NCBI GenBank assembly: GCA_003224055.1
Contig: QHYE01000108.1
Coordinates: forward strand, 1-36,603
Reading direction: 5' to 3'
Origin: Acidobacteriota bacterium
Lineage (GTDB): Bacteria; Acidobacteriota; Terriglobia; Acidiferrales; UBA7541
DNA length: 36,603 nt
Shown here: piece after piece, positions 31,939-34,448 of the stretch
Position numbering within the stretch: the stretch's first letter is position 1
Layout: each line of letters begins with the position of its first letter
Notes under the pieces: generated by a model
The model's database searches: none
Told to the model about the DNA's origin: nothing
The model's input: the letters and a program-made list of their open reading frames with translations, nothing else
Made by a program: the position numbers and the translations under genes

Positions 31939-32922
31939 CTAGCCTCCGATAAAAACCATGGTGCGCGAGGGGGGGACAAAACCGGGCTCATTGATGCGGT
32001 GGCCTTCTTCTTTTTCCATGACGATGGAGGTGATGTAGGCGATCAAGTCCTCGTCGGAGGCGCCTTCGCGCAGCATGGAGCGCAAGTCGTGATCGTCCTT
32101 GCTGAAAAGGCAGGTGCGAAGCTTGCCGTCGGCGGTAAGACGGATGCGCGAGCAGTGGCCGCAGAATGGTTGCGTTACAGGAGCAATGAGGCCGATTTCG
32201 CCGGGGGCGCCATCCGCGAAACGGTATTTGCGCGCGGTTTCGCTGCGCTCGTGGGGAATTTGCTCCAGGGGCCAACGGGCGTGTATGCGTTTCTGGATTT
32301 CCGCGGCGGGGACGACGAGATCACGCGTCCAGTGGCGGTCGGCATCGAGGGGCATGAATTCGATGAAGCGCATGATGACACCGCGGTCGCGGGCAAATTG
32401 CGCGAAGGATTCGACTTCATCGTCATTGAGTCCGCGGACGAGGACGGCGTTCACTTTGGCGGGCGCGAGGCGCGATTTTTGGGCGGCTTCGATGCCGCCC
32501 ATGACCTTGGTGAACGATTTGGTACGCGTGATGCTTTCGAATCTGGCAGTGTCGAGCGAATCGAGGCTGATGTTGATGCGACGTAGACCGGCGGCGATCA
32601 GGCGATCGCAGCGCTCGGCGAGGAGGTGGCCGTTGGTGGTCATTGAGAGGTCTTCGACGCCGAGGGCATGAAGACGGGCGATATAATCTTCGACGCCGTC
32701 GCGGACGAGCGGCTCACCGCCGGTGATGCGGATTTTGCGAATGCCGAGGTGCAGGAAGACGCGAGCGAGGCGGTCGAGCTCGGGCCAGGAGAGGATTTCA
32801 TCGTGGTCGCGATAGTTTTCCGGGTCGGCGGAGCGGCAGTAGACGCAGCGGAAATTGCAGCGGTCCGTGATGGAGATGCGCAGGTCGGTGATCTGCCGGC
32901 CGAATTTGTCGTGAAGGGTCAT
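31939..32922 (-). CDS. moaA: GTP 3',8-cyclase
   Basis: Radical SAM enzyme that performs the first step of molybdenum cofactor synthesis, converting GTP to 3',8-cyclo-GTP, which MoaC turns into cyclic pyranopterin. The 327-residue protein has DRCNFRCVYCR with the radical SAM cluster (C22, C26, C29), the TGGEPL motif, and the second cluster site FCGHCSRIRLTADGKLRTCLF (C-x2-C-x13-C). ATG 32922 begins the conserved MTLHDKFGRQITDLRISITDRC; the frame continues upstream but only across the structured leader. No other moa/moe gene is in the window. A long leader with a terminator and riboswitch-like block (32978-33165) precedes it. The stop is TAG. Confidence 0.96.
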   Translation of the reverse strand: MTLHDKFGRQITDLRISITDRCNFRCVYCRSADPENYRDHDEILSWPELDRLARVFLHLGIRKIRITGGEPLVRDGVEDYIARLHALGVEDLSMTTNGHLLAERCDRLIAAGLRRINISLDSLDTARFESITRTKSFTKVMGGIEAAQKSRLAPAKVNAVLVRGLNDDEVESFAQFARDRGVIMRFIEFMPLDADRHWTRDLVVPAAEIQKRIHARWPLEQIPHERSETARKYRFADGAPGEIGLIAPVTQPFCGHCSRIRLTADGKLRTCLFSKDDHDLRSMLREGASDEDLIAYITSIVMEKEEGHRINEPGFVPPSRTMVFIGG

Positions 32923-32977
32923 GGCTTGCCGCAGTACTTTGATGCCGCTCCTCGGGTTTCGGGCGCAAGAAGCCTCG

Positions 32978-33015
32978 AAAACAAAACCGCCCGATCCATG
33001 GCTTGGAATCGGGCG
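32978..33015 (-). terminator. Leader terminator before moaA (attenuator)
   Basis: On the minus strand CGCCCGAT (33008-33015) and ATCGGGCG (32988-32995) form a perfect 8-bp stem with a 12-base loop. The downstream sequence is GTTTTGTTTTCG, a U-rich tract. It lies inside the moaA leader, about 55 bases before the ATG, so it would stop transcription ahead of the gene. A loop segment, TTCCAAGC (33001-33008), is complementary to GCTTGGAA (33052-33059) in the upstream riboswitch-like block, which offers an anti-terminator. Confidence 0.65.
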
Positions 33016-33017
33016 CA

Positions 33018-33041
33018 GACGAAAAAATATATATTTTCGTC
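33018..33041 (-). other. AU-rich hairpin between aptamer and attenuator
   Basis: GACGAAAA (33018-33025) pairs with TTTTCGTC (33034-33041), 8 bp with an AT-only 8-base loop. It sits exactly between the riboswitch-like block and the terminator hairpin. It would be the hairpin enclosed by the proposed anti-terminator helix, bringing its two arms together. Confidence 0.55.
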
Positions 33042-33165
33042 GGTGGCTCCTTTCCAAGCGGGAGGCCTGGGCGTTTCCACCCAAACCCTCAGTCCCGAGA
33101 GTTCGCGGGACGTCGCCCCTGTCGCCGTGGGATGTCTCTCCCGTAGGCCGCAGAGGTCGGAGTTA
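33041..33165 (-). ncRNA. Candidate Moco riboswitch in the moaA leader
   Basis: The minus strand here is GC-rich and full of helices: GTCCCG-8-CGGGAC (33092-33111), GGGTG-GAAA-CGCCC with a GNRA tetraloop (33069-33082), and possible pairing of ACTCC near the 5' end with GGAG near the 3' end. The 3' part reads GCCTCCCG (33059-33066), CT, TGGAAAGG (33049-33056). From memory, the E. coli moaA leader, the type example of the Moco riboswitch, has the same two blocks separated by four bases, and also shares CCTCTGC near the 5' side. The position before moaA fits. The global fold could not be checked here, so the identification is tentative. Confidence 0.55.
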
Positions 33166-33172
33166 CAGCGAT

Positions 33173-33201
33173 AGTCTACGCCGCCTGCCCGAAGTGCGCA
33201 A
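33173..33201 (-). promoter_or_regulatory. Putative promoter of the moaA leader
   Basis: On the minus strand TTGCGC (33196-33201), a 17-base spacer, then TAGACT (33173-33178; 4 of 6). The predicted start near 33166 coincides with the beginning of the riboswitch-like block and gives a leader of about 245 bases before moaA. Confidence 0.4.
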
Positions 33202-33266
33202 TTGGGGCAAATTAAAGCCAGGGCTGAAGGGAGTGCTGTGGATTGTGATAGAGTTTTTGCCACGCC

Positions 33267-34448
33267 ATGCGGATCTTCGTTTTGGGAGCCGGAGCAACCG
33301 GTTCCCTTCTCGCACAATTGCTGGAGCGGCAAGGACATACGGTCTGGTGCGGCGACCGCGACCCAGAGCGCGCGCGGCGCTTCCTGGGCAAGAAAAGCAC
33401 CATTGCCGTCACGGAAGTGAACGCGCGGAATTTGCGCGGAATCGTAAAGGCGGCCAAGGGCTGCCACCTCATCGTCAACGCCTCGGCATCGCTTTTTAAC
33501 GAGATCGTGTTGCGCGCGGCGCTGCGGCTGCGGGCGCATTACATGGATCTGAGTTCCCACCTGACGCGGCATCCGTTCCGAGCGGAGCAATTTCGTTACG
33601 CAAAGAGATTCGAAGAAAAAAACCGCACGGCGCTGATCAATGCCGGAGTAGCGCCGGGGCTGACCAATCTGCTGGTGAAGCGCGCGGCCGAGATGCTTGA
33701 CGAGGTCGAGGCTGTGCACATCCGGCTGTATGAAAGCACGGAAAGCGATGACCCGATTTCGCAGTGGTCGCCGGAAGTGTCGTTTGACGAAGCGATTTCG
33801 CATCCGCAAGTCTATCGAAATAGAAAATTTCAGCTCGGAAAGCGTTTTTCGGAAGTCGAAAAGTTTCGCTTCCCCGAGCCGATTGGGACGGTAAGCGTGG
33901 TGCTCGCGGCACAGGATGAAGTGGCCACGCTGCCGCGCTACATCCCGATGCGCGAACTCGATGTGAAAATCGGCGGGAATGAAATCGACCGGCTGAGGCG
34001 GTGGCACAAGCAGGGGAAACTATCGAAATCCCGCGGGATGGCAAAATTGCGATTTCCTCAAACGTCTTCACCGCGGATGATCGCGAAACTGATTCGGCAA
34101 GGAGTCTTGCAAAACGCGCGATTCGCAGCAGTGGTACTGGTGCGCGGGAAGAAGCGCGGCAAGAAGGAGGATTTACACTTGCTGATCCGCAGCGACTGTT
34201 TGTTTCCCACGCTTTATCAAATTCGGCGGAAAGGACTATTCACGACGCCGGTAGCATTCGCCACGGCTCATGTGGCGGCACTCTTCATCAAATTTTTCCC
34301 GCGGGAGCTCGCCGGCGTGTTCGCGCCGGAGATGCTGCCCGCGGAAACGCGCCGGGCCATTCTAGCCGGGATTCGCAATAACAGCATTCACATTACGCAC
34401 AAGACGACCGTGCTGAAACACCACGGCGAAGACGACGAAGAGTTGTAG
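33267..34448 (+). CDS. Saccharopine dehydrogenase-like NAD(P)-binding protein
   Basis: A 393-residue oxidoreductase-like protein. An N-terminal Rossmann motif, FVLGAGATGSLLAQLLERQG, is followed by CGDRDPERA, matching the saccharopine dehydrogenase NADP-binding domain. The middle shows NASASLFNEIVLRAALRLRAHYMDLSSH and NAGVAPGLTNLLVKRAAE, typical of the saccharopine/carboxynorspermidine dehydrogenase superfamily. The C-terminal half (EVEAVHIRLYESTESDDPISQWSPEV) fits its catalytic region. Substrate and pathway cannot be told; lysine or polyamine metabolism are possibilities. ATG 33267 begins exactly at the Rossmann strand but has no clear ribosome binding site. It is divergent from moaA and convergent with the DUF1326 gene (12-base gap). 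The stop is TAG. Confidence 0.85.
   Translation: MRIFVLGAGATGSLLAQLLERQGHTVWCGDRDPERARRFLGKKSTIAVTEVNARNLRGIVKAAKGCHLIVNASASLFNEIVLRAALRLRAHYMDLSSHLTRHPFRAEQFRYAKRFEEKNRTALINAGVAPGLTNLLVKRAAEMLDEVEAVHIRLYESTESDDPISQWSPEVSFDEAISHPQVYRNRKFQLGKRFSEVEKFRFPEPIGTVSVVLAAQDEVATLPRYIPMRELDVKIGGNEIDRLRRWHKQGKLSKSRGMAKLRFPQTSSPRMIAKLIRQGVLQNARFAAVVLVRGKKRGKKEDLHLLIRSDCLFPTLYQIRRKGLFTTPVAFATAHVAALFIKFFPRELAGVFAPEMLPAETRRAILAGIRNNSIHITHKTTVLKHHGEDDEEL

Follow-up and report, generated by a model that had tools for sequence, protein, structure and literature searches.

How Moco riboswitches act on their genes is thinly documented in the literature consulted: for E. coli the reported control was translational, and signs that transcription is terminated came later. 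E. coli moaA has been modelled as translational (PMC3280964), Rho-dependent 3' ends have been described at that gene (eLife 2021, PMC7815308), and the E. coli Moco riboswitch was inferred by TaRTLEt (2025, PMC12121620) to modulate termination. Moco aptamers upstream of intrinsic terminators, alongside translational ones, are described in Regulski et al. (2008, PMC2408646), whose text, as far as consulted, gives no antiterminator pairing or covariation for the terminator-type RNAs. The same paper associates the presence of stem P3 with Moco rather than tungsten-cofactor metabolism.

The leader considered here precedes moaA on the minus strand of a 36,603-nucleotide stretch of DNA from an Acidobacteriota bacterium, the whole of which is called the window. 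It shares aptamer class and gene with the E. coli moaA leader, and with the terminator-type RNAs in the text of Regulski et al. it shares an aptamer followed by an intrinsic terminator. The E. coli aptamer match (L031 913-1057) overlaps the moaA start at 1045, whereas in the window a spacer hairpin and a terminator lie between the two. The host group of the window is outside the list in the abstract of Regulski et al., and "acidobacter" occurs 0 times in its main text. The evidence below makes it very probable that the window leader is a Moco riboswitch that attenuates moaA transcription as an OFF switch, its response to ligand being predicted. An initial annotation had proposed a transcriptional rather than a translational version of this riboswitch; the terminator layout is indeed conserved, but it is not new in kind, given the terminator-type Moco RNAs described in PMC2408646.

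The moaA leader of the window

The RF01055 (Moco/Tuco riboswitch) model matches positions 33031-33173 of the minus strand over its full length (model 1-135) with 62.8 bits (E 5.7e-13 for the window) against a gathering cut-off of 36, i.e. above the gathering score and not merely at a relaxed threshold. It is the sole gathering-level Rfam match in the 36.6 kb window; a relaxed Rfam scan of 32850-33300 gave two extra matches, both far under their cut-offs, and the source genome holds one RF01055 copy. The leader has the aptamer sequence and structure of the full model and the moaA target, and scores lower than the E. coli RNA (62.8 vs 103.6 bits). The class is marked by stems P1-P5, with a GNRA tetraloop in P4 and a receptor in P2; here every stem of the model aligns, as does the GGAAAC loop, and the P2 receptor side is only partly consensus. 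P1 is formed by CUCC at 33159-33162 and GGAG at 33047-33050, and an optional Rfam stem (GUCCC...GGGAC) at 33092-33111, supported by alignment and fold, is taken to correspond to the P3 of Regulski et al. The leader folds with a z-score of -4.0, and 0 of 200 shuffles were equally stable.

The controlled gene at 31939-32922 (minus strand, ATG at 32922) encodes a GTP 3',8-cyclase that matches the NCBIfam equivalog TIGR02666 with 377 bits (cut-off 284) and carries the Pfam domains Radical_SAM and Mob_synth_C; it is a genuine moaA, and the Moco riboswitch identity proposed in the initial annotation is supported by the RF01055 match. The next genes on the minus strand encode a DUF2203 protein and then a DUF255/thioredoxin-like protein, and Mo-cofactor family matches numbered 0 among the six other neighbouring proteins scanned.

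The minus-strand order that had been read from the window (promoter pair, structured block, AU hairpin, GC hairpin with U tract, moaA) stands. By direct reading a promoter occupies 33173-33201, with a -35 TTGCGC (33201-33196), a 17-nt spacer and a -10 TAGACT (33178-33173). A strict sigma-70 consensus scan found 0 promoters in the window and did not recover this pair; the looser pattern TTG-N19..22-TANNNT immediately precedes the aptamer in 60 of the 61 family leaders with sufficient sequence, one of the 62 being too short to count, vs 42 of 1220 mononucleotide shuffles. RNA polymerase would then start at about 33167-33164, just 5' of P1, and the transcript would begin almost at P1. Beyond the aptamer the fold places an AU-rich spacer hairpin, GACGAAAA...UUUUCGUC, at 33018-33041, followed by an intrinsic GC terminator hairpin (32988-33015, -16.9 kcal/mol, terminator scan) and the U tract GTTTTGTTTT (32978-32987, direct reading and terminator scan).

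Closer to the gene, a GCATC(N)AA-like element begins 24-25 nt 5' of moaA in 11 of 30 long leaders, and is possibly a second promoter beyond the terminator. At the element position in the window (32938-32946, minus strand) the reading is GGCATCAAA, the leader there reading GCATCAAA; GCATCYAA occurs twice in the window (2.3 expected), and at no place in the moaA leader.

Conservation in the acidobacterial family

The nearest named MoaA relatives (at most 91% identity) are Acidobacteria MAGs, several of them gp2, Candidatus Acidiferrum, or Acidiferrales/Acidoferrales; one relative at 85% identity (L083) is in a record titled Betaproteobacteria. RF01055 was found at E <= 0.001 in 60 of 89 family genomes (58 above the cut-off), at 62 places in total. 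At 59 of these loci a co-oriented moaA lies directly downstream, at a distance of 59-201 nt from the aptamer match, and at the remaining three the contig ends about 90-115 nt past the aptamer. Across the family the leaders keep the order aptamer, spacer hairpin, terminator; both the RF01055 match and the conservation of the leader, on which the proposal of a riboswitch hung, are thus found in the relatives.

The riboswitch is not universal in the family, 29 of the 89 genomes giving no match. The moaA upstream regions from 20 of these 29 gave no RF01055 match at E 0.1, two of the 20 (L186, L187) being uninformative with only about 100 nt upstream. Four genomes (G054, G062, G063, G066) have a MoaA above the NF001199 cut-off and more than 600 nt of upstream sequence with no RF01055. 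For four genera of the family (g6, g10, g12, g13) every MoaA match listed scores under the NF001199 cut-off and the RF01055 search was also negative, which suggests that their moaA belongs to another lineage lacking the switch. Two genomes have two RF01055 copies each, i.e. G022 (L005, L032), where both precede a moaA, and G055 (L024, L038), where the L038 leader segment is the same as in L037 of genome G065.

Within the window region the terminator is weak on its own, with one terminator-like site found against 0.6 expected in shuffles. A hairpin of -10 kcal/mol or stronger with a U tract follows 60 of the 62 family leaders vs 53 of 310 dinucleotide shuffles, which rules out a chance terminator despite the weakness in the window alone. 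Canonical terminators follow 59 of the 62; L051, though in the energy count of 60, is without the usual 5' arm, and L003 and L004, from one genus (g7), have no strong terminator. In these last two leaders moaA is downstream of the aptamer, and a TTCTCCCTTTCC-like pyrimidine tract near its start appears by eye almost complementary to GGAAAGGAGAA. The terminator stem shows compensatory change in 30 cells among 58 relatives, vs 10.9 in shuffles. For the spacer hairpin, 22 cells are changed on both sides among 32 leaders of the closest genus (9.4 in shuffles, reached by 0 of 500), and the number of pairs with such change (4) is equalled or passed by 179 of 500 shuffles.

The antiterminator pairing

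The aptamer segment GCTTGGAA (33059-33052) is perfectly complementary to TTCCAAGC (33008-33001) in the terminator, as the initial annotation had pointed out. In the minimum free energy fold of the window leader the two form an antiterminator, whose 5' strand GCUUGGAA (33052-33059) overlaps the conserved aptamer core UUGGAAAGGAG and whose 3' strand UUCCAAGC (33001-33008) overlaps the terminator 5' arm and loop; both strands are also supported by covariation. In the predicted fold of the window leader only, an extension at 33011-33050 encloses the spacer hairpin and adds pairs onto the terminator 5' arm (33050-33049 with 33012-33011; 33047-33044 with 33013, 33014, 33016 and 33017), burying more of that arm. 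Among 20000 shuffled terminators, 60 contain an 8-nt complement to the 20-nt aptamer core and 1118 contain one to the aptamer at any position; on the window sequence by itself the pairing is no more than suggestive, and the case is made by the relatives.

For 59 of the 62 leaders (L003, L004 and L051 dropped), a 13-nt aptamer segment, consisting of GGAAA and the 8 nt before it, was paired with a terminator stretch made up of the 5' arm, the loop and four 3'-arm bases. The mean duplex energy was -12.93 kcal/mol with the leader's own partner vs -10.13 with swapped partners, a difference reached by 0 of 5000 permutations. The count is likewise 0 of 5000 for the 32 leaders of the closest genus, for the 27 others, and for a set of 29 in which each distinct segment is represented once. 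A cruder measure, the longest run of pairs, was equalled in 0 of 5000 permutations for all 59 leaders, 11 in the closest genus, 94 outside it and 8 for the distinct segments. The preference for the own partner is confined to one of 14 leader segments (z -9.6, the other 13 lying between -1.6 and +2.6), and L010/L057 have runs of 9-10 bp between the aptamer segment (X) and its terminator partner (Y).

Column shuffles ignore relatedness, and crossing nearest relatives is the better control. When 54 of 55 leaders were paired in this way into 27 disjoint pairs, the own partner was better in 21, equal in 2 and worse in 4, for which a one-sided Wilcoxon test gives p 1.6e-5. When the segment was shifted to any of seven control offsets, the own partner was preferred in 9 to 16 of 27. 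Together with the swap permutations and the single-segment specificity this rules out a chance complement, weak as the case is in the window alone, and the covariation proposed for 33052-33059/33001-33008 is supported by the relatives in duplex swaps and crossing, only modestly in branch-wise counting.

The 58-leader alignment also omits L038, whose segment equals that of L037. In it 81.5% of cells are paired over the eight X-Y pairs, and 24 show both-sided changes, where shuffles give 7.9 and 0 of 500 reach the observed count; with the partner shifted one column, pairing falls to about 50%. The number of X-Y pairs with both-sided change, three, is equalled or passed by 102 of 500 shuffles. 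Column pair 7/83 occurs as C-G, U-A, A-U, G-C and U-G. Branch-wise counting over 55 of the 58 leaders (three are without moaA sequence) found both-sided change in this pair on 5 of 108 branches (P 0.014), modest support, and gave no significance for pairs 6/84, 8/82 and 9/81; one slid control pair reached 0.008, but never kept pairing. The RNAalifold consensus of the 32-row alignment recovered neither the antiterminator nor the spacer hairpin.

Folding and proposed mechanism

Folding of the window leader at increasing transcript length gives the aptamer, then the antiterminator, then near-balance with the terminator, in line with the alternative states proposed for it. P1 has a probability of 0.87-0.90 at 127, 143 and 150 nt, falling to 0.29 at 130 nt; for the antiterminator the value is 0.97-0.98 at 173-184 nt. 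At 186 nt the free fold has -85.0 kcal/mol vs -83.6 with P1 and terminator forced, a gap of 1.4 kcal/mol, and by 204 nt the terminator prevails (0.91). Such a series could fit a kinetically controlled OFF switch. In equilibrium folds of 59 leaders at least four expected X-Y pairs form in 24, and the terminator is favoured in 33 of the other 35.

On comparative and folding evidence the antiterminator is conserved in the relatives and exclusive with aptamer plus terminator, and an intrinsic terminator follows the aptamer, both as in attenuating riboswitches. The window leader genuinely matches the Moco riboswitch and is laid out for transcription attenuation, its ligand binding and termination being predicted; comparative support for its way of switching is good. 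In the proposed sequence of events P1 of the aptamer would fold first, as the truncated transcripts predict. With Moco bound, GCUUGGAAAGGAG would be held in the aptamer, the terminator 5' arm would be free, and the terminator would form and stop transcription before moaA. When Moco is lacking, GCUUGGAA is predicted to leave the aptamer and to pair with UUCCAAGC, a fold supported by covariation; this pairing excludes P1 and terminator together, and moaA would be transcribed. The spacer hairpin, present in both predicted folds, probably brings the antiterminator strands together. The OFF direction, i.e. cofactor binding that frees the terminator and shuts moaA off as originally suggested, is supported because the predicted folds are mutually exclusive and because it agrees with E. 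coli biology.

Moco RNAs elsewhere in the phylum

RF01055 occurs in 57 of 396 sampled genomes of the phylum, at 80 places including that of the window. Among 42 of the 79 other matches that were examined, all outside the family and two of them, kept in the 42, without a recognised core, 24 show a reading frame that begins 4-15 nt past AAAGG and stays open for 40 codons or more. In one of these (L174) the GTG start seems by eye to fall within a hairpin, which makes it doubtful; the translational, E. coli-like layout, with the core directly before the start codon, is therefore counted for at least 23 of the 42. Terminators with an arm or loop perfectly complementary to the core over 7-10 nt occur in L151 and L156, which share a genus, and in L180, from another family; the same switch logic was perhaps reached there separately from the window family.

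It is somewhat likelier than its contrary that the window family (Acidobacteria gp2, Candidatus Acidiferrum and Acidiferrales/Acidoferrales records) moved from the translational layout to attenuation, the core GGAAAGGAG, elsewhere a ribosome site, being reused as an antiterminator strand, and that the same solution, a terminator UUUCC complementary to the core, arose in the two other families (L151/L156; L180), perhaps independently.

Two further observations concern other leaders. In L174 and L175 (another family of the same class) the core is followed by a near-complement (CCTTCCAGTGG vs CCACTTGGAAAGG) in an apparent anti-aptamer hairpin, seen by eye and with no U tract, which is perhaps a further type of expression platform. 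A TPP riboswitch lies within about 1.5 kb downstream of moaA at 5 of 20 loci scanned (L115, L116, L117, L118 and L120), all in Acidobacteria records.

Alternative interpretations

The mechanism could be as described and the ligand a tungsten cofactor or another molybdopterin form instead of Moco, which would be compatible with attenuation. RF01055 spans both Moco and tungsten-cofactor ligands, and the exact Moco-associated metabolite has not been identified according to PMC10845959; nevertheless the stem taken as P3, the feature that the text of Regulski et al. (PMC2408646) links to Moco, is present in the window leader, and a different ligand is considered unlikely. Still less expected is that the covarying stretches make a loop-loop (kissing) contact between the aptamer P5 loop and the terminator loop, with aptamer and terminator coexisting and the contact coupling ligand to termination. 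Such a contact would yield identical covariation, and these two loops do hold the most variable paired positions. However, the complement extends into GGAA/UUCC, i.e. into the aptamer core and the terminator stem; 56 of 59 terminators retain UCC, although in 25 of them the terminator fold leaves one or more of its bases unpaired, a point that partly fits kissing too; and nested folding alone gives a balanced two-state switch, a comparison in which ViennaRNA cannot score kissing.

A Moco aptamer followed by a constitutive terminator or read-through site, the real control being translational, as reported for E. coli, or exerted by Rho, would find its parallels in the 23 or more of 42 examined RNAs that look translational elsewhere in the phylum and in the Rho-dependent ends that PMC7815308 describes in the E. 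coli moaA leader. Against it, GGAAAGGAG is not positioned as a moaA ribosome site in the family because moaA starts 59-201 nt after the aptamer match, and the co-varying antiterminator would be left to explain; this reading is highly improbable. Attenuation through the antiterminator is the preferred interpretation.

Implications

A literature search that lacked most subscription journals found no report of Moco riboswitches in Acidobacteria or of such an antiterminator. The novelty is modest: what was not found in the literature searched is a comparatively supported switch pairing and its near-uniformity in the family (59 of 62 leaders). With its covariation-supported antiterminator, this compact switch exists in dozens of natural variants across the family, which makes it a good basis for in-vitro work; the family also provides an example of one aptamer core that has apparently switched jobs, from ribosome site to antiterminator.
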